Shown here: positions 47,102 through 57,608 of the stretch, in pieces
Layout: every line of letters starts with the position of its first letter
Numbering within the stretch: position 1 is the stretch's first letter
DNA from: Methylophaga sp.
GTDB taxonomy: Bacteria > Pseudomonadota > Gammaproteobacteria > Nitrosococcales > Methylophagaceae
DNA length: 64,000 nt
Direction of reading: 5' to 3'
Assembly: GCA_030148085.1 (NCBI GenBank)
Contig: JASBUF010000067.1
Location: 1-64,000 of the forward strand
Position numbers and translations under genes: made by a program
Notes under the pieces: model-generated
The model's input: the letters and a program-made list of their open reading frames with translations, nothing else
What the model was told of the DNA's origin: nothing
The model's database searches: none

Positions 47102-47127
47102 CCGGCATCTGACTGATGCTGGTTTTT
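47102..47127 (+). terminator. Rho-independent terminator after zapG
   Basis: Stem CCGGCATC / GATGCTGG (one G-T pair) with a short loop is followed by five T, 51 bases after the zapG stop and before the azurin gene. Confidence 0.75.
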
Positions 47128-47192
47128 GCTACTGAGCTCTCATCTCATTACTTAGAATGAATCTCTCAATTTTATTAACTTGGAGAGAGAGA

Positions 47193-47633
47193 ATGCGTTT
47201 ATATCTACTACCCCTGGCTTTCATTTCATCAATCGCCAGTGCAAACACCTGTGAAGTCGCTGTTTCATCTAATGACTCATGGGCTTATGACACAAAAACA
47301 ATTAGTGTTCCTGCTAATTGTGAGGAGTTTACTGTCAATTTCAAACACAACGGCAAATTGTCTAAAGAAGGACTCGGCCATAACTGGGTTCTGGCTAAGA
47401 CAGCTGATGTCAATGCGATTGCCCAAGATGGCGGTACTCAAGGTCTGGAAAACAACTTCCTGAAACAAGGCGATGACCGTATTATCGCTCACACGCCAAT
47501 CATTGGTGGTGGTGAAAGCGCCTCAACTACCTTCAAAGTTAGTGCATTGGACGCTAAAGAAAACTACACCTTCTTCTGCTCATTCCCCGGTCATACATTT
47601 ATGATGCGCGGTACTCTAAAAATTGCAGAATAA
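47193..47633 (+). CDS. Azurin
   Basis: Azurin is a periplasmic type 1 copper protein carrying single electrons. ATG 47193 follows TTGGAGAGAGA and gives 146 residues with a signal peptide ending SIASA. The copper ligands align exactly with azurin spacing: His63 (GHNWVL), Cys129, His134 and Met138 (CSFPGHTFMM), and the disulfide pair is Cys20/Cys43. It faces the mau cluster, which lacks amicyanin. Azurins accept electrons from methylamine dehydrogenase in Methylomonas sp. J and from aromatic amine dehydrogenase, so that role is likely here. Confidence 0.94.
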   Translation: MRLYLLPLAFISSIASANTCEVAVSSNDSWAYDTKTISVPANCEEFTVNFKHNGKLSKEGLGHNWVLAKTADVNAIAQDGGTQGLENNFLKQGDDRIIAHTPIIGGGESASTTFKVSALDAKENYTFFCSFPGHTFMMRGTLKIAE

Positions 47634-47726: not shown

Positions 47727-48572
47727 TTACTCATCGACTTTTCTGGTTACCATTCCTACCAAATCCAGCTTCATTGACAGCGCCCCTTCATGGCACTCAT
47801 CCAGACAGGCACCACAACGGGTGCAATCAACGGATGTTACGGCCTGCGCCTGCTTGGAGACTACCGGTGCCAACACATGGGGTTCAGGGCACACAGTCAT
47901 ACAACGCGAGCAACCACTGGCATCACAGGATTCGCTAGGCGTTGCCGTGACTTTAAGCCGCCCGTAGCGACCAATTAGTCCATAAAAAGCACCAACCGGA
48001 CAAAGATGGCCACACCAGGCCCGCCGACTCACGAATAAGTCGAACAAAAATAAAGCGCCCAGCAACATGGCACCACTGAAGGAAAACCAGATCAGCTCAC
48101 GCTGGAATCGTGTGATCGGATTTACCATCTCCCATGCCAGCGTACCGCCAAACAAGGACAGTGCTAAGGCCAATGCCAATATCCATAGCCGCAGGCTTCG
48201 GGATAAGCTCATATTGCCTTTAATTTTGAGCTTTTTACGTAACCAGTAAGCCAGATCGGTCAACAGGTTGATAGGACATACCCAGCTACAGTAGAGGCGA
48301 CCTGCAAAAAAGGCATAAAAGCCGCCGACGAGGATAGCTCCCAGTAATGCCGGTAACGCAATGGACGAGCCTGCCAGAAAAGACTGAAGCAGAATAAAGG
48401 GATCGGTTAGTTTCAGCTCACCAAACCAAAGGCTGGACGATAAATTACCGTCAGCAATCTTGCCATACCCCGGTATGTGAACAGTGAAGGCTAATAAAAT
48501 GGAGATTTGAACTATGCGGCGCATTAACAACCAGCGATGCCGGTAAAGACCTCGCTTCAAACGTCGTAGCAT
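47727..48572 (-). CDS. mauN: Methylamine utilization protein MauN (NapH-like ferredoxin)
   Basis: The 281-residue membrane protein has about five helices, a paired CSWVCPINLL and CGHLCPVGAFYG in cytoplasm-side loops as in NapH, and two C-terminal 4Fe-4S motifs, CDASGCSRCMTVCPEP and CTRCGACLDECHEG. With MauM it resembles a NapGH quinol dehydrogenase module. Reports on other mau clusters describe mauM and mauN as dispensable for active enzyme, so it may tune electron supply. It is the last gene of the cluster, two bases after mauM. Confidence 0.93.
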   Translation of the reverse strand: MLRRLKRGLYRHRWLLMRRIVQISILLAFTVHIPGYGKIADGNLSSSLWFGELKLTDPFILLQSFLAGSSIALPALLGAILVGGFYAFFAGRLYCSWVCPINLLTDLAYWLRKKLKIKGNMSLSRSLRLWILALALALSLFGGTLAWEMVNPITRFQRELIWFSFSGAMLLGALFLFDLFVSRRAWCGHLCPVGAFYGLIGRYGRLKVTATPSESCDASGCSRCMTVCPEPHVLAPVVSKQAQAVTSVDCTRCGACLDECHEGALSMKLDLVGMVTRKVDE

Positions 48573-48574
48573 AG

Positions 48575-49258
48575 TTAGCTCCTTCCAACCGAATTCCTGC
48601 CTGATAGCCCCAAGCCCAACTCACGTGGCAGCACACGGATAGCCGCTTCAGACAACACACAATGTTTCTCACAGGTGCCGCAACCCGTGCACTTATCGGA
48701 ATGAACGGTAGGAATAAGCAACTTACCCTTTTCTGACTGAACAGGCTCCAGCGTGATGGCTTCATCACGAATCGGGCAGACTCGCCAGCAAATACTGCAG
48801 GTCAGGCCTTTGTAATTGAGGCAGGTTTCATGGTCGACCAGTACAGCCACACCCATATCGGCTTTTTTGATATCCGTCATATGACGATCCAACGCCCCGG
48901 TCGGACAGGCTTTTGCACAGGGAATATCGGTACACATCCGGCACGGTTCTTCCCTTGCCACAAAATAGGGTGTGCCCTGAGGCGCAGGACCGGCCCAACT
49001 GGCGAGTTTAAGAATATCGTAGGGACAGTCATCAACGCACAGGCCGCAGCGTATGCAAGCGGAGTCAAAATCCAGATCGGGTAAGGCGCCCGGCGGCCTG
49101 AGCGCTTCTGCCGCGCGTGCAGGCCGCGACAGAATCATCGATTGACCGACGATGGTGCCGACGAGGACGACACCGAAACGCTTGAATAACGTTCGGAAGG
49201 TATCCCTTTTAGCGGGGTCTTCCAGATTGGCCTTGTTGTGTCGTTTGTCCTCAGCCAT
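48575..49258 (-). CDS. mauM: Methylamine utilization protein MauM (NapG-like ferredoxin)
   Basis: ATG 49258, directly after a CAGGAG ribosome-binding site, gives 227 residues. The N terminus has a hydrophobic export segment (VVLVGTIVGQSMI), without a clean twin-arginine motif. Four 4Fe-4S sites follow: CIRCGLCVDDCPYD, CRMCTDIPCAKACPTG, CLNYKGLTCSICWRVCP and CTGCGTCEKHCV, as in NapG. The partner is MauN, whose ATG follows two bases after the stop. Confidence 0.93.
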   Translation of the reverse strand: MAEDKRHNKANLEDPAKRDTFRTLFKRFGVVLVGTIVGQSMILSRPARAAEALRPPGALPDLDFDSACIRCGLCVDDCPYDILKLASWAGPAPQGTPYFVAREEPCRMCTDIPCAKACPTGALDRHMTDIKKADMGVAVLVDHETCLNYKGLTCSICWRVCPIRDEAITLEPVQSEKGKLLIPTVHSDKCTGCGTCEKHCVLSEAAIRVLPRELGLGLSGRNSVGRS

Positions 49259-49290
49259 AAATACACTCCTGCAGACAAGCTGCAAAAACG

Positions 49291-49653
49291 CTAGGGAGAG
49301 ACCGTCATCTTGGCTCGGATGATCGGATGAATCCAGCACTGCAGCAGATAATCACCCGCAGCAGGAATAGTCCAAGTGAAGGTTTCGCCTGGAAGTTGCA
49401 CATCTAAATTCACCACAGTCCCATCGGGGTGGGTGATATAAATACTGTGTGCAACATCAGATTTGTTCGTGATCGCCAAGGTATCACTTGCCCTGGGGGT
49501 AAAAGTCCAGTCTTCAAAATCGTGGTGGGTCAGTGACAAATTGTGAACCACCGGCTCTGACTCGCTCATCTGCTCGGCTCTGCCAGCCGTCGAGATTAGC
49601 GTTGCCGTGATCAGCGTCATGCCCAACAACCAACGTTGCAGTTTCCTATTCAC
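49291..49653 (-). CDS. mauL: MauL-like cupredoxin lacking the axial methionine
   Basis: The 120-residue product starts at GTG 49653 and has a signal peptide ending AGRAE. The C-terminal cupredoxin domain aligns with amicyanin: His69 (DVAHSIYI), Cys106 and His109 in CWIHPIIRAKM, where amicyanin has CTPHPFMRGKV. The amicyanin Met98 position is isoleucine 112, so the usual axial ligand is missing. Its place between mauG and mauM matches mauL of methylotrophs, a gene reported as needed for methylamine dehydrogenase production. A maturation role is therefore more likely than electron carriage. Confidence 0.8.
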   Translation of the reverse strand: MNRKLQRWLLGMTLITATLISTAGRAEQMSESEPVVHNLSLTHHDFEDWTFTPRASDTLAITNKSDVAHSIYITHPDGTVVNLDVQLPGETFTWTIPAAGDYLLQCWIHPIIRAKMTVSP

Positions 49654-49658
49654 GTCAG

Positions 49659-50663
49659 CTATTCCTCAGGCAAAACCGGTACTTCAAGATCAAGTGGGCC
49701 ACCATCCAGCGTTTGCAGAAATGCGATGAGATCCGCTCTCTCCTGCTCGCTGAGTTCAAACGGTTTCATTTCTTTCGACAGGCTGGCACGTTGAATACCG
49801 CCCTCTTCATAGTGTTTTACCACTTCTTCCAGGCTGCTCATCGAACCATCGTGCATAAACGGGCCGTTTTCAGGCAGATCACGCAAGGTCGGTGTTTTAA
49901 AGGCATGCTGCATAATCGTTACCTCCACCGGTATCACTTTGCCCCGTCCCAAATCCGGACTATCCAGACCGATATCATGGAAACTGTCATCGGTGAAACG
50001 CCACGACTTATGACAGGCAGCGCACTGAGCTTTATCGTTAAACACCTCAAAGCCACGTTGTGCACTGGTGCTGATAGCCTGCTCATCGCCAGTTACCCAT
50101 CGGTCAAAGCTTGAATGATTAGATACCAGGGTACGCTGGAAAGTGGCCAGCGCCATAGCGATACGCTGCGTGGTGATCTCAGCATCACCGTAGGCCGATT
50201 CAAACAGGGGCTCATAGCCTTTGATTTCACCCAATCTTTGAACTAACTCGTTCATGTTGTAGTTCATTTCATGTGGCGTAGTGATCGGAAGCACCGCCTG
50301 TGCTTCCAGTGAGTTGGCTCGGCCATCCCACATTAATGCGTTAAGCCAGGCACTGTTCATGGCAGTGGGCGTTCGTCTCGGCTGCTCGAGTTCTTCAGAA
50401 CCCAGCGGCACAATACGGCCATCGCTCCAGCGATGATCCGGTGAGTGACAGGTCGCACAGGACATGCCTTTTTCTCGAGACAAACGCGGGTCAAAAAACA
50501 GGGTTTTCCCCAGCGTGGTTTTTTCTACAGTCAGCGGATTGGATGCCGGAGCCGGAATGGCTTCGGGACGTTGATATTCACTCCGCTTAATCGTGTCATC
50601 GGCCAAACTGACATGCACGGAAAATACCGTGCATGCCAACATGACGAGGCTTCTGATCTTCAT
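49659..50663 (-). CDS. mauG: Diheme enzyme MauG (TTQ biosynthesis)
   Basis: MauG completes the tryptophan tryptophylquinone cofactor on MauA by long-range six-electron oxidation. The 334-residue periplasmic protein has a signal peptide ending VSLA and two heme c sites, CATCH at 69-73 and CAACH at 214-218. Tyr285 in VVKHYEEGG lies where the unusual tyrosine heme ligand of MauG is expected, separating it from ordinary cytochrome c peroxidases. Trp112 (MWDGR) is a candidate for the inter-heme tryptophan. It sits between mauA and mauL. Confidence 0.93.
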
Positions 50664-50687
50664 GATTTAAGAATGCCTCTGACCGAC

Positions 50688-51254
50688 TTAGCTGGCTTTG
50701 CCAACAACCGGTGAAATGGTGCAGTGATAAGTCATATCATCATTTTCTGCACCGAAACACCAAACGATGTCGTTAGAGAACTCTGGGCGGTAAACTGGCA
50801 GTTCACCTTCAGTGTTCAGACACGCACAGCTACCACAAGTTTGCTTACCACAGCAGTCACGGTAAGCGATCAGGTAAGTTTGCTGGTCACCCGGGTTATA
50901 ACAGCTCGCCACCCAAGAACTTGGTGACAGGCTGGTGCCCGGCGGACAGGAAGTCAGCGTACCACCACAGCAGTCACAAACGTTACCGTCGATAGAACAG
51001 TGACGCCAGTAGTCACAGGCTTGAGGATCCTGATCCTGAGGTGTCCAACCTGCTCTCAGTACGTCGCCACCTGATGCTGATGCGGCATGCGCTTCACTCA
51101 GGCGTCCACGGCGGTCAACAGGAAGCAGTGGTAAGATGGTTGCACCCACCAGAAAGCCCCCCAGTTTGCCGACAAAACTACGACGACCTGTTTTGTTGGC
51201 GGTACGACGAGTCAGTTTTTCAATCGCTGCGTCAAATCCTAATTTCTTTGTCAT
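50688..51254 (-). CDS. mauA: Methylamine dehydrogenase light (beta) chain, TTQ subunit
   Basis: MauA carries the TTQ cofactor that oxidises methylamine to formaldehyde and ammonia. The 188-residue precursor has a twin-arginine signal (GRRSFVGKLGGFLVGA, residues 23-38) ending near SEAHA. By alignment with the Paracoccus beta subunit, the TTQ tryptophans are Trp114 (SSWVASCYNP) and Trp165 (IVWCFGAE); catalytic Asp133 (AYRDCCG), Tyr176 and Thr179 are present at matching spacing. It has 14 cysteines after the signal; relative to the 12 I recall in Paracoccus, Cys96 and Cys140 are extra. Confidence 0.97.
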   Translation of the reverse strand: MTKKLGFDAAIEKLTRRTANKTGRRSFVGKLGGFLVGATILPLLPVDRRGRLSEAHAASASGGDVLRAGWTPQDQDPQACDYWRHCSIDGNVCDCCGGTLTSCPPGTSLSPSSWVASCYNPGDQQTYLIAYRDCCGKQTCGSCACLNTEGELPVYRPEFSNDIVWCFGAENDDMTYHCTISPVVGKAS

Positions 51255-51301
51255 TTGCCTTCTCCGTTTCTATTTCTAAAGGTCTACTATCAGGTGAATG
51301 A

Positions 51302-51934
51302 TTAGTGCAGGTGCTCGCCCACTTTCACTTCTTTCGCGGTAGAGCCGTCTTTCAGGTAGCTCTGCAGAGAAGCGTGGCCGAGGCGAATGGTTTCGAACAG
51401 GCTTTCAACGTGCTCACGGGTGTTGCACAGGCCTTTGCCTTTGATAACACCATCCGCATCCAGCAGGACACCGTAAGGCACTTTCGAAATCTGGTAGCGC
51501 ATACCAATTTCAGGCGAGTTGATGTACAGCTCACCTTTCAGTGGGTGATTGCTCAGGAACTCACGGTGTTCCGCCGCAGTACCGTCACTGATCAGAATCA
51601 CATCTGCACCTTCAGAAGCTGCTACATCACGAATGATTGGCAACAACTTGGCACAAACCGGGCATGAAGGACCGGTGAACATCAGCAGACTTGGACGACC
51701 TTTGGTGATCGCACGACCAACCAGTACATCTTTTTCATCTGTGAATGTTTTAACGTTGAACACTGGTGATTTGTCACCGATGTCAGGTCCGTGATCCACC
51801 ATCATCGCACCCAGCGGTGCTGAGCGTTCATGCAGCAGACCAATTTGTCGGATGACACCGACCATGAGTGCAGCCAGAGCCAGAAAAGCAGCCCAGAGCA
51901 ACACATTTGAAGCAATAAGAATATCGAAGCTCAT
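51302..51934 (-). CDS. mauD: Methylamine dehydrogenase accessory protein MauD
   Basis: MauD is a thioredoxin-fold protein required for correct folding of the disulfide-rich MauA. The 210-residue sequence has an N-terminal membrane helix (about 8-30), VGRAITKGRPSLLMFTGPS and the redox motif CPVC at residues 91-94, followed by a thioredoxin-like core (ISKVPYGVLLDADG with the cis-proline). It lies 22 bases downstream of mauE and 47 bases upstream of mauA. Confidence 0.94.
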   Translation of the reverse strand: MSFDILIASNVLLWAAFLALAALMVGVIRQIGLLHERSAPLGAMMVDHGPDIGDKSPVFNVKTFTDEKDVLVGRAITKGRPSLLMFTGPSCPVCAKLLPIIRDVAASEGADVILISDGTAAEHREFLSNHPLKGELYINSPEIGMRYQISKVPYGVLLDADGVIKGKGLCNTREHVESLFETIRLGHASLQSYLKDGSTAKEVKVGEHLH

Positions 51935-51956
51935 TGTAAATTTTCCTTACTAAAAA

Positions 51957-52505
51957 TTAGGTTCTTGATTCGCGGGAATTCGGCAACCCCACCATCACAT
52001 CAGCCGCTACATAGAGCATGGCCAACAGTGCAGCCGAAGCCATACCGATAAGCCAGGATGCGAGGGAGACATTCGCGACTTCCAGCGAACTCAGAGCGAT
52101 GAACGTGCTGACACCAGCGAGGAAGAGCGCGCGCAGGACATGAAACATGCCAATGCGGCTCTTACTGGTCGGACGACGCACGCAGCCACAGTCAATGTGA
52201 GTGCGGCCCCTGCCGACGTTGATTGCCAGTGCCAGAGCGAATACCACAAACAGGCCAACTGCTACCCAGGCCGCCATTTCACGTGCAGGCGGCACCATCA
52301 AAGCGACAGCACACGCCAACTCAACCATAGGCAGAAGTCTGGCTACCGGTGCCACCAGAAAACCTGGCAGCAAACGGTAGTTGTCGACAACACCCTGGAA
52401 TTCGTCGGGGCTTCGCAGCTTGGAAATAGCCGCCACAGCCAGTACCAGCCCCACGAAAAGTGTGGCCAGTACAGACAGAGCAGGATCGTTAATTAACCAG
52501 TTCAT
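51957..52505 (-). CDS. mauE: Methylamine utilization membrane protein MauE
   Basis: MauE is a membrane protein needed with MauD for MauA stability, probably in disulfide handling. The 182-residue protein has four or five helices and a loop [13 protein letters not shown] near residues 102-114 that carries the paired cysteines. [14 protein letters not shown] near the start is typical for the family. It starts three bases after the mauB stop. Confidence 0.93.
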
Positions 52506-52508
52506 GGC

Positions 52509-53687
52509 TTACTCACTATCCTGAGGCAGGGTCAGAATGTGTGGGTAACGACCCAGGCTACCGATTTCACCGACTTTCTTACCTGTCTTCGCGTCGAAGG
52601 TGTACATCGCTCTATCACCCGCAGACAAAGCAAACAGATAAGGCTGGTCATCCTGACTTACCGCAATCGAATCGATTTCGTGTTTCAGCTCGATACGACG
52701 CAGACGTTTGCCAGTATTCCCATCGACAACAAAGACATAACGACTTGGTGATTTGTGAGTCCACTCAGCACGTTGATCGGCCAACAGATACAGCTCGTTC
52801 GTTTTATCGTGAACGGTAATTAGCTGCCAGCCACCTGGACGCCACTTTGCAGCCTTCTCTTCATCGGTAAAAACTTCGAAAGGCTTCTTGAACTTGGCAC
52901 CAGAAGCAGTGAGTTCAGCTTGGAATATCTGTCCTTCGTAGTCAGGCCATACCAAGTGATTTGTCACATCCGAGTAGTACGGCATATTGCTCAAGTACTC
53001 ATCTTCAGCATGAAATACCTTGGAATGTTTCTGCTCTGCGTTTCCTTCAGCGTCATAGCTGATTTGCAGCAACGAACCATCACGACAATGCATATAGACG
53101 TTTTGCTCTGGAGCTGGGAACAGGTGGTAACAGTCCGGTGTATCAATCATTTTGACGAACTTGTTGTTTTCCAGATCAACCAGGCCAACCGCAGGTACCG
53201 GTGAGAACTGCTGGAAAAGCATATGCTTGTCATCAGTACTCAGCGTTGCCATGTGCGGGAATACACCGGTCAGAAAACGGCCTTCAGGAATATCGATATC
53301 CGCAGTCACTTCGTGAGTGCTGGTATCGAATACTTCGATATAGTCATCACGATTACCACGGGCAATACGGTCATACCAGGTATTGGCAACGGCCAAAAAC
53401 TTGCCTTTGTCACCGACCATTACGTGAGGCAGTTTGCCTGCGTCGACCATACCCAACATTTTGCTGGTTTTGCCATCAATAGTGAAAACCTGGGAGGTCA
53501 TTTGGAAATGACCCGGATCAGTTACATAAACGCGTTTTGCATCACTTGCTGGTGCAACTTCGATCGTCTGTGCTTCGATGGCAATATCTGCTAATGCTGG
53601 ATACGTCGTTGCCATCAGGGCTGCTGCGGCAATACTGCCTGCCAGAGCTTGCTGCCCAAGCTTTGATTTAAAATTAAATATAGTCAT
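52509..53687 (-). CDS. mauB: Methylamine dehydrogenase heavy (alpha) chain
   Basis: MauB forms the seven-bladed propeller that holds MauA in the periplasmic alpha2beta2 enzyme. The 392-residue precursor has a Sec-type signal peptide ending YPALA, with no twin arginine, and blade repeats such as RVYVTDPGHF, MLGMVDAGKLPHVMV, GGWQLITVHDKTNELYLLAD, RYVFVVDGNTGKRLRRIEL and MYTFDAKTGKKVGEIGSL. The methylamine rather than aralkylamine type is judged from the whole cluster and MauA. It follows mauF after 58 bases. Confidence 0.95.
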   Translation of the reverse strand: MTIFNFKSKLGQQALAGSIAAAALMATTYPALADIAIEAQTIEVAPASDAKRVYVTDPGHFQMTSQVFTIDGKTSKMLGMVDAGKLPHVMVGDKGKFLAVANTWYDRIARGNRDDYIEVFDTSTHEVTADIDIPEGRFLTGVFPHMATLSTDDKHMLFQQFSPVPAVGLVDLENNKFVKMIDTPDCYHLFPAPEQNVYMHCRDGSLLQISYDAEGNAEQKHSKVFHAEDEYLSNMPYYSDVTNHLVWPDYEGQIFQAELTASGAKFKKPFEVFTDEEKAAKWRPGGWQLITVHDKTNELYLLADQRAEWTHKSPSRYVFVVDGNTGKRLRRIELKHEIDSIAVSQDDQPYLFALSAGDRAMYTFDAKTGKKVGEIGSLGRYPHILTLPQDSE

Positions 53688-53745
53688 ATCTCCTCCAAAC
53701 TATTTTTTGGTTTATTAAGAGTTAAGGATTAAGGCTCGCCCGTGT

Positions 53746-54597
53746 TTACAGCGTCAGCATGGTTAATGCGGCAGCACCGATAGACAGCAGGAGGAACCCA
53801 TCCAGTTCAACTGCACGTTCCTGCCATTTCGCCAGCCAGGCCTGAACGGACTGATTGCTGATTGGCAAAAAGTTCACCGCTACAGGCAGACAACGCCCGA
53901 TGTTGAAGATGGCGATGATTGTGATTGCTGTAGTAACGTCTGCACTCAGCAAAGCAGCACCGGTCACGATATAAAGGATCGGTGTCTGTACGTATGTCAG
54001 GTAATTCATGCCCAGCGCATAGCCATACAACAGGCCAATTGTTGAAGAACGAAACCGAAAACGAGCGTCATGAGGTACTTGTGCACGACGTTGTGGATAA
54101 GGCATTTTCAAGAAGCCTAACTGGTGTGCGCCGTAGCCTATCGCCAGTGCCGCCAGCCCCATAACCATATGACTGAAAGCCAACTGTTCGAACAGGAAGG
54201 CACCAATCAGACCCAAACCGCCACCCAGAATTAGGGCACCGAAGGCATAGCCAATGGCATGGGTAATAAAGGTAGGTGTCCAGCGAGCCACTGAACCGAA
54301 AGAATACTTACCGGCCGGTCTCAACAGACTCAGACTGGAATAACCACACGGTGACCAGGTAGACAGTAAGCCACCAATAAAGGTCAAGACTAGAAACATG
54401 CCTGTCAGGGCAGTCGACATTTGTGTATTTAATAAGATGCCAGCCGTGACACCGACAGCAATCGCCGATAACATAATGGCGAATCTTGCACCGGCTGATT
54501 TTGACTCAGAAAAACTGATGGCATCTGGCACGCAGGCTGCACTGTTCTCGACGGTGGATGACTGACTAAAATTGCCAGCTTCTATATCTGCTCTCAC
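53746..54597 (-). CDS. mauF: Methylamine utilization membrane protein MauF
   Basis: MauF is a membrane protein required for methylamine dehydrogenase synthesis; its exact job is unknown. The start is GTG 54597, because an ATG two bases upstream is immediately followed by TGA in its frame and the GTG has an AGGAGGAG ribosome-binding site. The 283-residue protein has a polar 35-residue N terminus, then about seven helices with FIGGLLSTWSPCGYSSLSLL and GYALGMNYLTYVQTPILYI. It is first in mauFBEDAGLMN, facing the 600-base control region. Confidence 0.93.
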   Translation of the reverse strand: MRADIEAGNFSQSSTVENSAACVPDAISFSESKSAGARFAIMLSAIAVGVTAGILLNTQMSTALTGMFLVLTFIGGLLSTWSPCGYSSLSLLRPAGKYSFGSVARWTPTFITHAIGYAFGALILGGGLGLIGAFLFEQLAFSHMVMGLAALAIGYGAHQLGFLKMPYPQRRAQVPHDARFRFRSSTIGLLYGYALGMNYLTYVQTPILYIVTGAALLSADVTTAITIIAIFNIGRCLPVAVNFLPISNQSVQAWLAKWQERAVELDGFLLLSIGAAALTMLTL

Positions 54598-55197
54598 ATT
54601 CTCCTCCTCAGACTTACGTCTTTAGTTGTTGGTTGAAATAAATCTGAAACAACTATAGCCAGCCGAAATTGAGTGCCGTATCAAAAACTGGCATTGGAGT
54701 ATGAAGTTGGGGATATCCGGCATCGATGTTGCCGATTTTTGCTATTAACTCGCTTAAGAAAGGGAACTTTGTCGGATAGCATTCAGAACAAATCCGCAGA
54801 CTTTCCTTTCAAGAGCACAGTCGGTTCAGGGACTTAACACAAGTAACTCACTCCCCTCAGTACTCTCTAATAAGTAGATACAGCGCTTATCCTTTGTGGG
54901 AAGATCGCCTCGTCGAAGTTATGCATAACGGAATAGGACGCCAGAACCTTTGCGTGTCATGATGTGGGAATAGTCTTCGAGCCTGTTTCTTAGTCCCCAC
55001 ACCCTCCCATCCTTAAGATCGTTCACCGCTCTGATCAGGTGTTGCCGATTTATACTATCTAAGCTCAAAAAAAGACCTATTATGGTATCGACCACTAGTC
55101 AGCCCGATAAAAACAACAACATGGGCGAATCAGGACTTCTCTAATAAAAACAATAAAGTCCGGTCATCGCGACAACTCGGTTGCGAGGGAGAGATAC
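54598..55197. promoter_or_regulatory. 600-base divergent control region between mauF and the AraC-family gene
   Basis: No credible coding sequence was found. For mauF on the minus strand, TATAGT (54657-54652) is a possible -10 without a good -35, as expected for an activated promoter. Upstream of it lie dyads TGCC-N12-GGCA (54674-54693) and GGCA-N7-TGCC (54719-54733). The 12-mer TGTTGCCGATTT occurs twice in the same orientation, at 54727-54738 and 55040-55051. The palindrome CTGATCAG is at 55031-55038, next to the second copy. TATACT at 55051-55056 could be a -10 for the regulator gene. Confidence 0.6.
54918..54929. promoter_or_regulatory. Perfect 12-base palindrome GTTATGCATAAC
   Basis: A perfect dyad in the middle of the mauF/AraC control region. 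It could bind a dimeric regulator other than an AraC-type protein. By chance such a 12-base palindrome is uncommon but not negligible in 64 kb. Confidence 0.4.
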
Positions 55198-56199
55198 ATG
55201 CACCAAGAAAAAATATGGTTAGACAACCACCAAAAATTAGAGATTGATGCAGTTCGCTGCAGGTTATCCGATGTGTTAGAGCAAGCAGCCGCCTTACCGT
55301 TGTGGTCTCAGGACTACACGCAACTGGATAAAGGTCAATTTTCCGGGTCGGTCACCAGCGTCGCTTGTCAGGGTGTGCAGATATTCCGTGAAGCCATGAA
55401 TCGCTCCGTGGATGAACTTGCCAGCGCCCCACCCGATAGTTATGTCATTGGCTTACCGACGATTGTTGAGGGTGATGCCTTATGGAGTGGCAGCAAGTTA
55501 AGTAAAAACTCGCTGATCACCATGGATATAAATGACGAACTTCTGTTCAGAACCTCTCACTCATCAGAAATCACGGCCGCCGTCATTTCTGATGAGCGAC
55601 TTGAGGAATATGCCGAACGCGTTGAGAAGGTGGACCTTCGCCCGCTTATGAGCAAAGTCAATCCGGTCGAGACGCTGCCACCGGCCATACAAAGCCGCCT
55701 GTTGGCGACCTTATATATCGGCACAGAACATTTGGCGAAAAACATCGAAGACGGCACCAGTCATCCAAACAGTTGGCGTCACTTCGAAGACAGCGTACTC
55801 AGTATTTGTGTGCAGGCACTGATGGCAGCCAGCAATAACAACAGTCGTCATCATGAATACCGGGTTCATCGTTATATCGTGAAGAGTGTGCGTGAGCTGA
55901 CACTCGCACAACACTGTGACCCCATTACCATAGGCGAGATCTGCACCGCATTGAATATCAGTCGCCGCACACTGAATCACGCATTTCAGCAGGTACTCGG
56001 TATTACTCCAGTTGCCTATATGCGAAACATCCGCTTACACAAAATCCGGGCTGAGCTGCAGTACAAATCCCAACAAATTCATAACATTGCCTGTGTCGCC
56101 TCACATTGGGGCTTTTGGCACATGAGCCTGTTCTCGCGTTATTACCGCGAGCTATTCGGTGAGTGCCCGAGTGACACGCTGGAGCGCTCACGCCACTGA
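55198..56199 (+). CDS. AraC-family transcriptional regulator, probable mau activator
   Basis: The 333-residue protein has an N-terminal domain with LDKGQFSGSVTSVACQGVQI and FREAMNRSV, a pattern shared with EutR-like AraC regulators, and a C-terminal double helix-turn-helix (about 230-333) containing ITIGEICTALNISRRTLNHA and HIACVASHWG-like HNIACVASHWGFWHMSLFSR. A GAGGGAGAG ribosome-binding site precedes the ATG. It is divergent from mauF across a repeat-containing region. Paracoccus uses the LysR-type MauR at this position, so an AraC-type regulator is different. Inducer identity is unknown; an amine is likely. Confidence 0.88.
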   Translation: MHQEKIWLDNHQKLEIDAVRCRLSDVLEQAAALPLWSQDYTQLDKGQFSGSVTSVACQGVQIFREAMNRSVDELASAPPDSYVIGLPTIVEGDALWSGSKLSKNSLITMDINDELLFRTSHSSEITAAVISDERLEEYAERVEKVDLRPLMSKVNPVETLPPAIQSRLLATLYIGTEHLAKNIEDGTSHPNSWRHFEDSVLSICVQALMAASNNNSRHHEYRVHRYIVKSVRELTLAQHCDPITIGEICTALNISRRTLNHAFQQVLGITPVAYMRNIRLHKIRAELQYKSQQIHNIACVASHWGFWHMSLFSRYYRELFGECPSDTLERSRH

Positions 56200-56265: not shown

Positions 56266-56478
56266 ATGGGTTCATTTAGTATTTGGCACTGGCTGGTTGT
56301 TCTGGTCGTGGTCGCCCTTGTTTTTGGTACCAAGAAACTGCGTAACCTGGGTGGCGATCTGGGTGGTGCAGTCAAAGGCTTTAAACAGGCCATGAATGAT
56401 GAGCAAAACACCAGCGTGATTGAACATGCCGTCAATGACACTGACAGCGTGAACAGTAAAGCCAAACACAAGCAATAA
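56266..56478 (+). CDS. tatA: Sec-independent translocase subunit TatA
   Basis: The 70-residue protein has the usual short transmembrane helix (about 5-20, [15 protein letters not shown]), the conserved [21 protein letters not shown] amphipathic helix split by the FG hinge, and an acidic/polar tail. TatA oligomers form the export path for folded proteins. It follows the AraC-family gene by 66 bases and begins a tatABC set. Confidence 0.95.
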
Positions 56479-56496
56479 ACATCATCTCGGCTTGCC

Positions 56497-56880
56497 ATGT
56501 TTAATATCGCCTTCCCAGAACTGATCGTCATCGTCGTTGTAGGACTGATTGTTATCGGCCCCGATAAACTGCCGAAAGTGGCACACACGCTTGGTGTGAT
56601 GATGGGCCGCATGCAACGCTTTATGAGCGCCGTTAAAAACGACATCGATCAAGAGTTGAAAAATAACGATCTGCTTCGTTTGCAGGAAGAGCTAAAACTT
56701 CAGCATGAAGGCCTCAATGAAGAACTTCGTATAGGCATGCAGCCGGTTGCTGACGTCATTCGTCGCCATGAGCCGACAACAATCGATTCAGAACCAGCCG
56801 AGCCCGCTCCGACTCAGGCCATAAACAAAGACACGGAGCAACAAGCACGCACCGCCAAACCAGAAGGAATCTCCACGTGA
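56497..56880 (+). CDS. tatB: Sec-independent translocase subunit TatB
   Basis: The 127-residue protein starts MFNIAFPELIVIVVVGLIVI with the conserved glutamate in the first helix and GPDKLPKVAHTLG after the hinge, the TatB pattern. The long charged helical tail fits TatB rather than TatA. TatB with TatC recognises twin-arginine signals. Its stop overlaps tatC by four bases. Confidence 0.95.
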   Translation: MFNIAFPELIVIVVVGLIVIGPDKLPKVAHTLGVMMGRMQRFMSAVKNDIDQELKNNDLLRLQEELKLQHEGLNEELRIGMQPVADVIRRHEPTTIDSEPAEPAPTQAINKDTEQQARTAKPEGIST

Positions 56881-57608
56881 GTAGCAAAGAAGAGTTTTTC
56901 AGCCACTTATTGGAGCTTCGCAACCGACTGTTGAAAATTGTGGCGGGCATACTGGTGGTCATGCTCGCTTTAGTCCCCTTCGCCAACGATATTTACCAGT
57001 TTCTGGCGACACCGTTGCTGCAAGCCTTACCCGAAGGTGGACAAATGATCGCCACCGAAGTCACCACCCCGTTCTTTGTTCCACTCAAAGTGGTGATGCT
57101 GGCCGCGTTCATCATCTCATCGCCCTATACGCTGTATCAGATCTGGGCTTTCATCGCCCCCGGCCTCTATGCCAATGAGCGCCACTTGGTCGCCCCCTTG
57201 GTCGTCACCAGTGTTTTTCTATTCCTATGCGGGATGGCGTTTGCCTACTTTCTGGTCTTCCCTGTCGTGTTCGGCTTCATCACCAGCACCGCCCCAGAAG
57301 GCGTCGCCGTGATGACCGACATCGGTAAGTATCTCGACTTCACGATTGGCCTGTTCATCGCTTTCAGCCTAGCCTTTGAAACACCGGTAGCCGTCGTGTT
57401 GATGGTCGCCGCAGGCATGGTAAGTGTCGTGGCACTGAAACAAGCCCGTTCCTACGTCATTGTCGGCGCATTCGTTATCGGCGCAATCATCACCCCGCCC
57501 GACATCATTTCCCAATTCATGCTCGCCATCCCGATGTGGTTGCTTTATGAAATAGGAATATTGGTTGCGGGCATGATGCAGAAGCCATCTGAACAGTTTC
57601 AAAGTTAG
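56877..57608 (+). CDS. tatC: Sec-independent translocase subunit TatC
   Basis: The 243-residue, six-helix TatC is the core receptor for twin-arginine signals. It has FSHLLELRNRLLK at the N terminus, the TPLLQALPEGGQMIAT periplasmic loop, SPYTLYQIWAFIAPGLY and the FAFETPVAVVL-like LAFETPVAVVLMVAAGM, and ITPPDIISQFMLAIPMWLLYE near the end. It probably starts at GTG 56877. The nearest obvious client in the window is MauA with its twin-arginine signal. Confidence 0.95.
   Translation: MSSKEEFFSHLLELRNRLLKIVAGILVVMLALVPFANDIYQFLATPLLQALPEGGQMIATEVTTPFFVPLKVVMLAAFIISSPYTLYQIWAFIAPGLYANERHLVAPLVVTSVFLFLCGMAFAYFLVFPVVFGFITSTAPEGVAVMTDIGKYLDFTIGLFIAFSLAFETPVAVVLMVAAGMVSVVALKQARSYVIVGAFVIGAIITPPDIISQFMLAIPMWLLYEIGILVAGMMQKPSEQFQS

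Follow-up and report, generated by a model that had tools for sequence, protein, structure and literature searches.

The locus and its genes

The window, the whole stretch of 64,000 nucleotides of a Methylophaga sp. contig that was analysed, holds a mau cluster with an azurin gene at one end and a divergent regulator gene followed by tatABC at the other:

47193–47633, + strand: azurin gene, presumed second target (TIGR02695; score 184.5 bits, cut-off 105.1)
47727–54597, − strand: mauFBEDAGLMN, presumed target operon
47727–48572, − strand: mauN
48575–49339, − strand: mauM
49291–49653, − strand: mauL, named by position and match to relatives, without a family model match
49659–50663, − strand: mauG, above the curated family cut-off
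50688–51254, − strand: mauA, above the curated family cut-off
51302–51934, − strand: mauD, above the curated family cut-off
51957–52505, − strand: mauE
52509–53687, − strand: mauB, above the curated family cut-off
53746–54597, − strand: mauF, named by position and match to relatives, without a family model match
55198–56199, + strand: gene of the AraC/XylS-type regulator, 333 aa long, with an N-terminal sensor/dimer domain of cupin-like type and a C-terminal DNA-binding domain with two HTHs
56266–57608, + strand: tatABC, directly downstream of the regulator gene
56266–56478, + strand: tatA
56497–56880, + strand: tatB
56877–57608, + strand: tatC

By family model TIGR02695, the azurin gene encodes a true azurin, and tatABC may, we infer, be co-transcribed with the regulator gene. 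MauA carries what we take to be a twin-arginine leader (GRRSFVGK). A role for Tat in MADH transport has been proposed earlier, and linkage of AraC, mau and tatABC has already been published for Methylophilaceae (both in the accessible text of PMC4109929). Judging from tatC counts in 24 Methylophaga genomes, the tatABC set linked to mau represents a second Tat system: at least two tatC matches were found in 11 of the 12 mau-positive genomes (defined by a mauA above the family cut-off), one match in genome G018 being a short fragment, and at most one in each of the 12 mau-negative genomes. The source assembly (89.9% complete, 3.27% contamination) also contains a second complete mau–azurin–regulator–tat cluster (locus L005, contig C39) with an 87% identical regulator, which may be a real duplication or, at 3.27% contamination, a second strain in the bin.

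The regulator is an AraC/XylS protein related to EutR

The first-pass annotation had placed an AraC-type regulator divergent from mau, and this is borne out by an open reading frame that runs opposite to mauF (54597–53746, − strand) and by an HTH_18 domain at residues 248–330 (Pfam; score 80.4 bits, cut-off 33.6). An AlphaFold2 model built from 19 homologues (mean pLDDT 83.9) has a cupin-like N-terminal domain, for which the top match was CuxR (5nla; Z 15.3, rmsd 2.9, 176 aligned) and BgaR also matched (6nwj_B; Z 11.8, rmsd 2.8, 147 aligned), and a two-HTH C-terminal domain that matched 3mn2_A (Z 15.6, rmsd 1.7, 108 aligned). A cupin-like N-terminal sensor/dimer domain is common, if not universal, in the AraC/XylS family; both this domain and the C-terminal HTH_18 are present, and the regulator is a member of that family.

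The N-terminus had also been likened to that of EutR. The homology is genuine and extends over the full length including the sensor domain (BLASTP against E. coli EutR: 28% identity across 322 aa at E 6e-38, and E 1e-13 with the first 225 residues alone), and amine catabolism is common to both, but identity with EutR did not hold. EutR is the top full-length NCBIfam match (residues 12–330), yet its 145.1 bits lie well below the model cut-off of 319; we rejected this assignment on that score, on a separate clade and on linkage to mau and tat rather than eutBC, no eut genes adjoining the window regulator. EutR requires both ethanolamine and AdoCbl (PMC5821096, as far as its accessible text goes). 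When the regulators were set against EutR and other AraC clades in a 46-row tree, as the first-pass annotation had proposed, those linked to mau formed one separate clade (support 98/99) with a Paraburkholderia caffeinilytica regulator as sister (98/99), and EutR was not their closest kin: the EutR proteins of E. coli and Klebsiella, together with relatives from mau-less Methylophaga, grouped with amidase-linked regulators (98/93). AraC, the L127 protein and an A. johnsonii protein sit on very long branches in this tree, and their placement is unsure.

Other named regulators resemble the window protein in part. QhpR (quinohemoprotein amine dehydrogenase) and FeaR (phenylethylamine oxidase) are likewise AraC-type, tied to amine-oxidising enzymes and similar at the level of the HTH, but the window regulator scored 16 of 250 bits against the QhpR equivalog model (NCBIfam) and does not belong to it, and 35.7 of 199 bits for FeaR, whose E. 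coli representative lies far outside on the regulator tree. TmaR of Ruegeria pomeroyi (SPO1584), an AraC-type activator of methylated-amine catabolism, differs in governing the tmm/tdm/dmm/gmaS-mgs/mgd route (PMC13390433, in the text available). Paracoccus MauR shares with the window regulator a gene immediately upstream of mauF, but is of LysR type and thus of an unrelated family; HTH_1 and LysR_substrate domains are present in the four Paracoccus/Amaricoccus proteins tested and absent from the window protein. MauR is said, in work attributed to Delorme and dated 1997, to control mau in P. denitrificans.

Distribution of regulator types among mau loci

Scanning the species-genome collection with MauA confirmed 155 loci; 80 were retained, and 49 of these scored. 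The 31 left out comprised 27 without mauF in the DNA available and four with too little upstream. Nineteen of the scored loci carry an AraC gene of the mau clade (seven Methylophaga, 11 Methylophilaceae and one Advenella), 13 carry a LysR gene of MauR type (12 Paracoccus and one Amaricoccus), none carries both, and 17 carry neither, these two types being the only ones scored. In 18 of the 19 loci, the AraC gene lies upstream of mauF and is transcribed divergently from it. The nineteenth, that of Methylophilus methylotrophus (L087), keeps the operator described below, and the sole regulator found in the genome (46% identity) lies downstream of mauN.

The AraC loci fall on one side of one branch of an unrooted MauB tree (support 100), so the regulator and the mau enzyme cluster travelled together, and the tree therefore does not show displacement of either regulator by the other. 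The first-pass annotation held that an AraC-family regulator replaces LysR-type MauR. The AraC gene does occupy the position of Paracoccus MauR, but replacement did not survive the comparison, and we rejected displacement of LysR by AraC given the confinement of LysR to the 13 Paracoccus/Amaricoccus loci, the 17 loci with neither type and the unrooted MauB tree. With P. denitrificans MauR as query, the source assembly showed no LysR of MauR type: all matches were generic LysR proteins (no more than 30 bits, 27% identity), and the mau contigs had none.

Within Methylophaga, the regulator was found at 60% identity or more in 11 of 12 mau-positive and none of 12 mau-negative genomes; the exception, G003, is an 85% complete draft with mau present and no regulator found. 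An extra, 86% identical regulator copy in G002 is accompanied by an operator and a chemoreceptor gene (L186, 6532–7566), the 14 kb examined there being free of mau genes, and a similar chemoreceptor gene flanks the mau–tat cluster in L005. A Gcw_chp-like gene of outer-membrane type lies between the regulator gene and mauF in M. lonarensis, Methylobacillus and Methylophilus (for example L056, 5352–6182), with operator pairs on either side of it in several of these loci.

A 15-bp candidate operator upstream of mauF

Alignment of the regulator–mauF intergenic DNA of the window and five Methylophaga relatives (58% mean identity) revealed two near-identical islands bearing one word, TAG(C/T)A..AATCGGCA. 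Sought in all 80 loci, this word was present upstream of mauF in all seven Methylophaga AraC loci and in all 12 Methylophilaceae and Advenella AraC loci, the latter 12 having taken no part in its discovery. The resulting 15-bp candidate operator, TAGYANNAATCGGCA, lies upstream of mauF in 19 of 19 AraC loci, whereas the exact pattern occurred in none of 34 mauF loci without the regulator, three of which (L072, L089 and L098) have less than 1 kb upstream. The best position weight matrix (PWM) site scored at least 24.6 in every AraC locus, against a best of 11.2 in regulator-less mauF loci and a maximum of 28.6, with the exact pattern fixed from Methylophaga and the first all-locus listing, and the matrix built from the same loci that it scored. 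When 20 upstream regions (those of the 19 AraC loci and of the second cluster in the source assembly) were dinucleotide-shuffled, 0.01 sites were expected, against 42 observed, and all 20 regions contained sites.

Operator sites are nearly exclusive to mau, azurin and regulator promoters. Thirty of the 33 exact sites in the 24 Methylophaga genomes lie at such promoters (one, on contig C203 of G018, was counted with the azurin group after its DNA was read), and the backward-read pattern, used as a control, gave two matches. The other three are in G021, G016 and G001, in which neither mau nor the regulator was found there; the G021 site has a TANNNT box at 22 nt, and the missing mau of G001 is weak evidence since that genome is 55% complete. 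Across the 10 Methylophilaceae and Advenella genomes with the AraC gene, mau accounts for 24 of 25 sites, and the same scan found none in the P. denitrificans, Methylorubrum and Hyphomicrobium genomes. Of 55 near-matches across the source assembly, the downstream DNA was read for 18, and a box followed at 20–22 nt in five (mau twice, azurin twice, regulator once).

The open-licence PMC literature, in the text available, yielded no operator, regulon or experiment for an AraC regulator of mau and no mechanism of mau control in Methylophaga or Methylophilaceae, and the LysR-type MauR of Paracoccus is the only mau regulator named there; subscription journals lie mostly outside this body of text. 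The 15-bp operator upstream of mauF in AraC loci is new here.

Promoter architecture

Operators and putative −10 boxes recur at three promoters in the window:

47117–47131, + strand: operator-like TGCTGGTTTTTGCTA, upstream of azurin
47153–47158, + strand: putative −10 box TAGAAT of the azurin promoter, 21 nt after the operator-like site
54652–54657, − strand: TATAGT, putative mau −10 box, 21 nt downstream of the proximal operator
54679–54694, − strand: proximal inverted operator ATGCCAGTTTTTGATA in the mauF −35 region (PWM 7.8), 50 bp from the distal copy
54730–54744, − strand: distal operator TAGCAAAAATCGGCA, upstream of mauF
55043–55057, + strand: TGCCGATTTATACTA, the reverse complement of operator TAGYANNAATCGGCA, ahead of the regulator gene
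55078–55083, + strand: TATTAT, putative −10 box of the regulator gene, 20 nt downstream of the operator

The proximal mau site is degenerate, at 7.8 of 28.6 bits the weakest of the three promoter-facing sites in the window (mauF, azurin and regulator), and is identical in four of five aligned relatives. Bases matching the regulator −10 box are nearly invariant across the six aligned Methylophaga loci. Operator copies form inverted pairs: 34 pairs within 120 bp were found, nine at 39–40 bp, 23 at 47–51 bp and two at 83–85 bp, in counts of sites and pairs that take in near-identical species, and the two main spacings are about one helical turn apart. A TANNNT box follows the mauF-facing site at 21 nt in 29 of 35 cases and at 22 nt in five of 35, and occurs at any other offset between 10 and 39 nt at most once. 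The trend is weaker at regulator-facing sites (21 nt in 12 of 45, 20 nt in six of 45) because that set includes the distal member of each pair. A generic sigma-70 scan found one promoter, with 1.3 expected from shuffles.

The mau promoter combines a poor −35 hexamer with a good −10 box and a fixed operator-to-−10 spacing, as expected of activator-dependent promoters. This argues against the regulator repressing mau until methylamine appears, as does the mainly activating role of EutR and TmaR (accessible text of PMC5821096 and PMC13390433); a regulator bound across the −35 region could keep polymerase away, and AraC itself is annotated as dual, but we consider repression very unlikely.

A probable dedicated activator of mau

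We consider it highly likely that a dedicated AraC/XylS activator binds paired 15-bp sites and drives mau, azurin and its own gene on methylamine; on the sequence evidence, the regulator is most likely a narrow, autoregulated activator of mau. It would bind pairs of inverted 15-bp sites of the form TAGYANNAATCGGCA, the promoter-proximal operator of each pair would overlie the −35 region and end 20–22 nt before the −10 box, in a manner like class II activation, and the regulator would then, in the presence of methylamine, switch on mauFBEDAGLMN, azurin and its own gene, perhaps together with tatABC. Co-occurrence, gene neighbourhood and site geometry make the window regulator the most likely binder of the operator, and activation rather than repression its most likely mode of action.

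An alternative interpretation is that the regulator mainly controls the tatABC genes downstream of it or the Gcw_chp gene, with mau driven otherwise. The tatABC genes do lie immediately 3' of the regulator gene on the same strand, several relatives also have operators flanking their Gcw_chp gene, and a second Methylophilus regulator copy adjoins a Gcw_chp-type gene away from mau. We nevertheless consider this highly improbable because the strongest operator in the window and the fixed 21-nt spacing are located at mauF, because the window clade retains the operator at mauF with no Gcw_chp gene between it and the regulator gene, and because mau-less Methylophaga are without the regulator.

For the Methylophaga and Methylophilaceae clusters, this proposal supplies a candidate activator together with an exact operator, a −10 box and a short list of targets, each directly testable, and the predicted operator and promoter could serve as a starting point for a methylamine-responsive promoter.

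The effector

The inducer of the proposed activator would be methylamine or a close metabolite. In Methylotenera mobilis, the mau genes are strongly induced by methylamine and are expressed far more highly on it than on methanol (PMC3728764, in the text available); Methylophilaceae strain 7, taken to be L063 here, is described as having Mau proteins very similar to those of this species (PMC4109929). Alternatively, the regulator could control mau and yet sense a product or downstream metabolite, such as formaldehyde, ammonium status or another catabolite, which we regard as a serious possibility, falling a little short of an even chance. There are precedents: the effector of Ruegeria TmaR is a catabolite beyond methylamine rather than methylamine itself (PMC13390433), so the direct sensing of a primary amine suggested by the first-pass annotation cannot be assumed, and EatR of P. 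aeruginosa responds to acetaldehyde, not ethanolamine (PMC5821096), both as given in the accessible text. The operator also precedes an aldehyde dehydrogenase gene in P. caffeinilytica, the nearest non-mau relative. The M. mobilis expression difference speaks against formaldehyde, which both substrates give, and residues D72, W96, S123 and E158, common to the window regulator and an amine-oxidase-linked relative, are absent from EutR. Together with the amine-linked relatives, these residues would favour methylamine as effector.

Relatives outside mau

The closest non-mau relative in the plasmid collection is the regulator of P. caffeinilytica plasmid p1 (WP_115783767.1; 38% identity). It resembles the mau system in having one strong operator (PWM 21.9) before an aldehyde dehydrogenase gene, with TAACCT 21 nt later, but its gene lies with those for a primary-amine oxidase, ethanolamine permease and aldehyde dehydrogenase, not with mau. 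The best operator score in the 11 other relative or control loci scanned was 14.7. Among 18 plasmid loci, the 11 with annotation place relatives near a primary-amine oxidase (three), eut operons (two), amidase (five) or another context (one), and in the seven unannotated loci tblastn detected an amidase at L150 and homologues of aldehyde dehydrogenase or a permease at some of the rest; an amine link is therefore common, not universal.

Tentatively, and as a reading less likely than not to hold in all its parts, we propose an amine-sensing, EutR-like AraC branch whose sensor would bind small primary amines directly and which would control a compact mau–azurin–regulator(–Tat) regulon through inverted operators 40 or 50 bp apart. 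These spacings differ by one helical turn, the protomers might span a DNA bend or loop, and the operator code might be common to the primary-amine-oxidase branch.

In Methylophilaceae UBA7525, a paired operator (spacing 50, box at 21 nt) precedes a gene for a 327-aa protein without a family match (L229, 3565–4545), a possible new regulon member. Three mau-less Methylophaga genomes (G012, G014 and G023; loci L016, L017 and L018) carry an EutR-like regulator, a 29% identical relative, beside eutB, and ethanolamine use in Methylophaga seems to have its own regulator.
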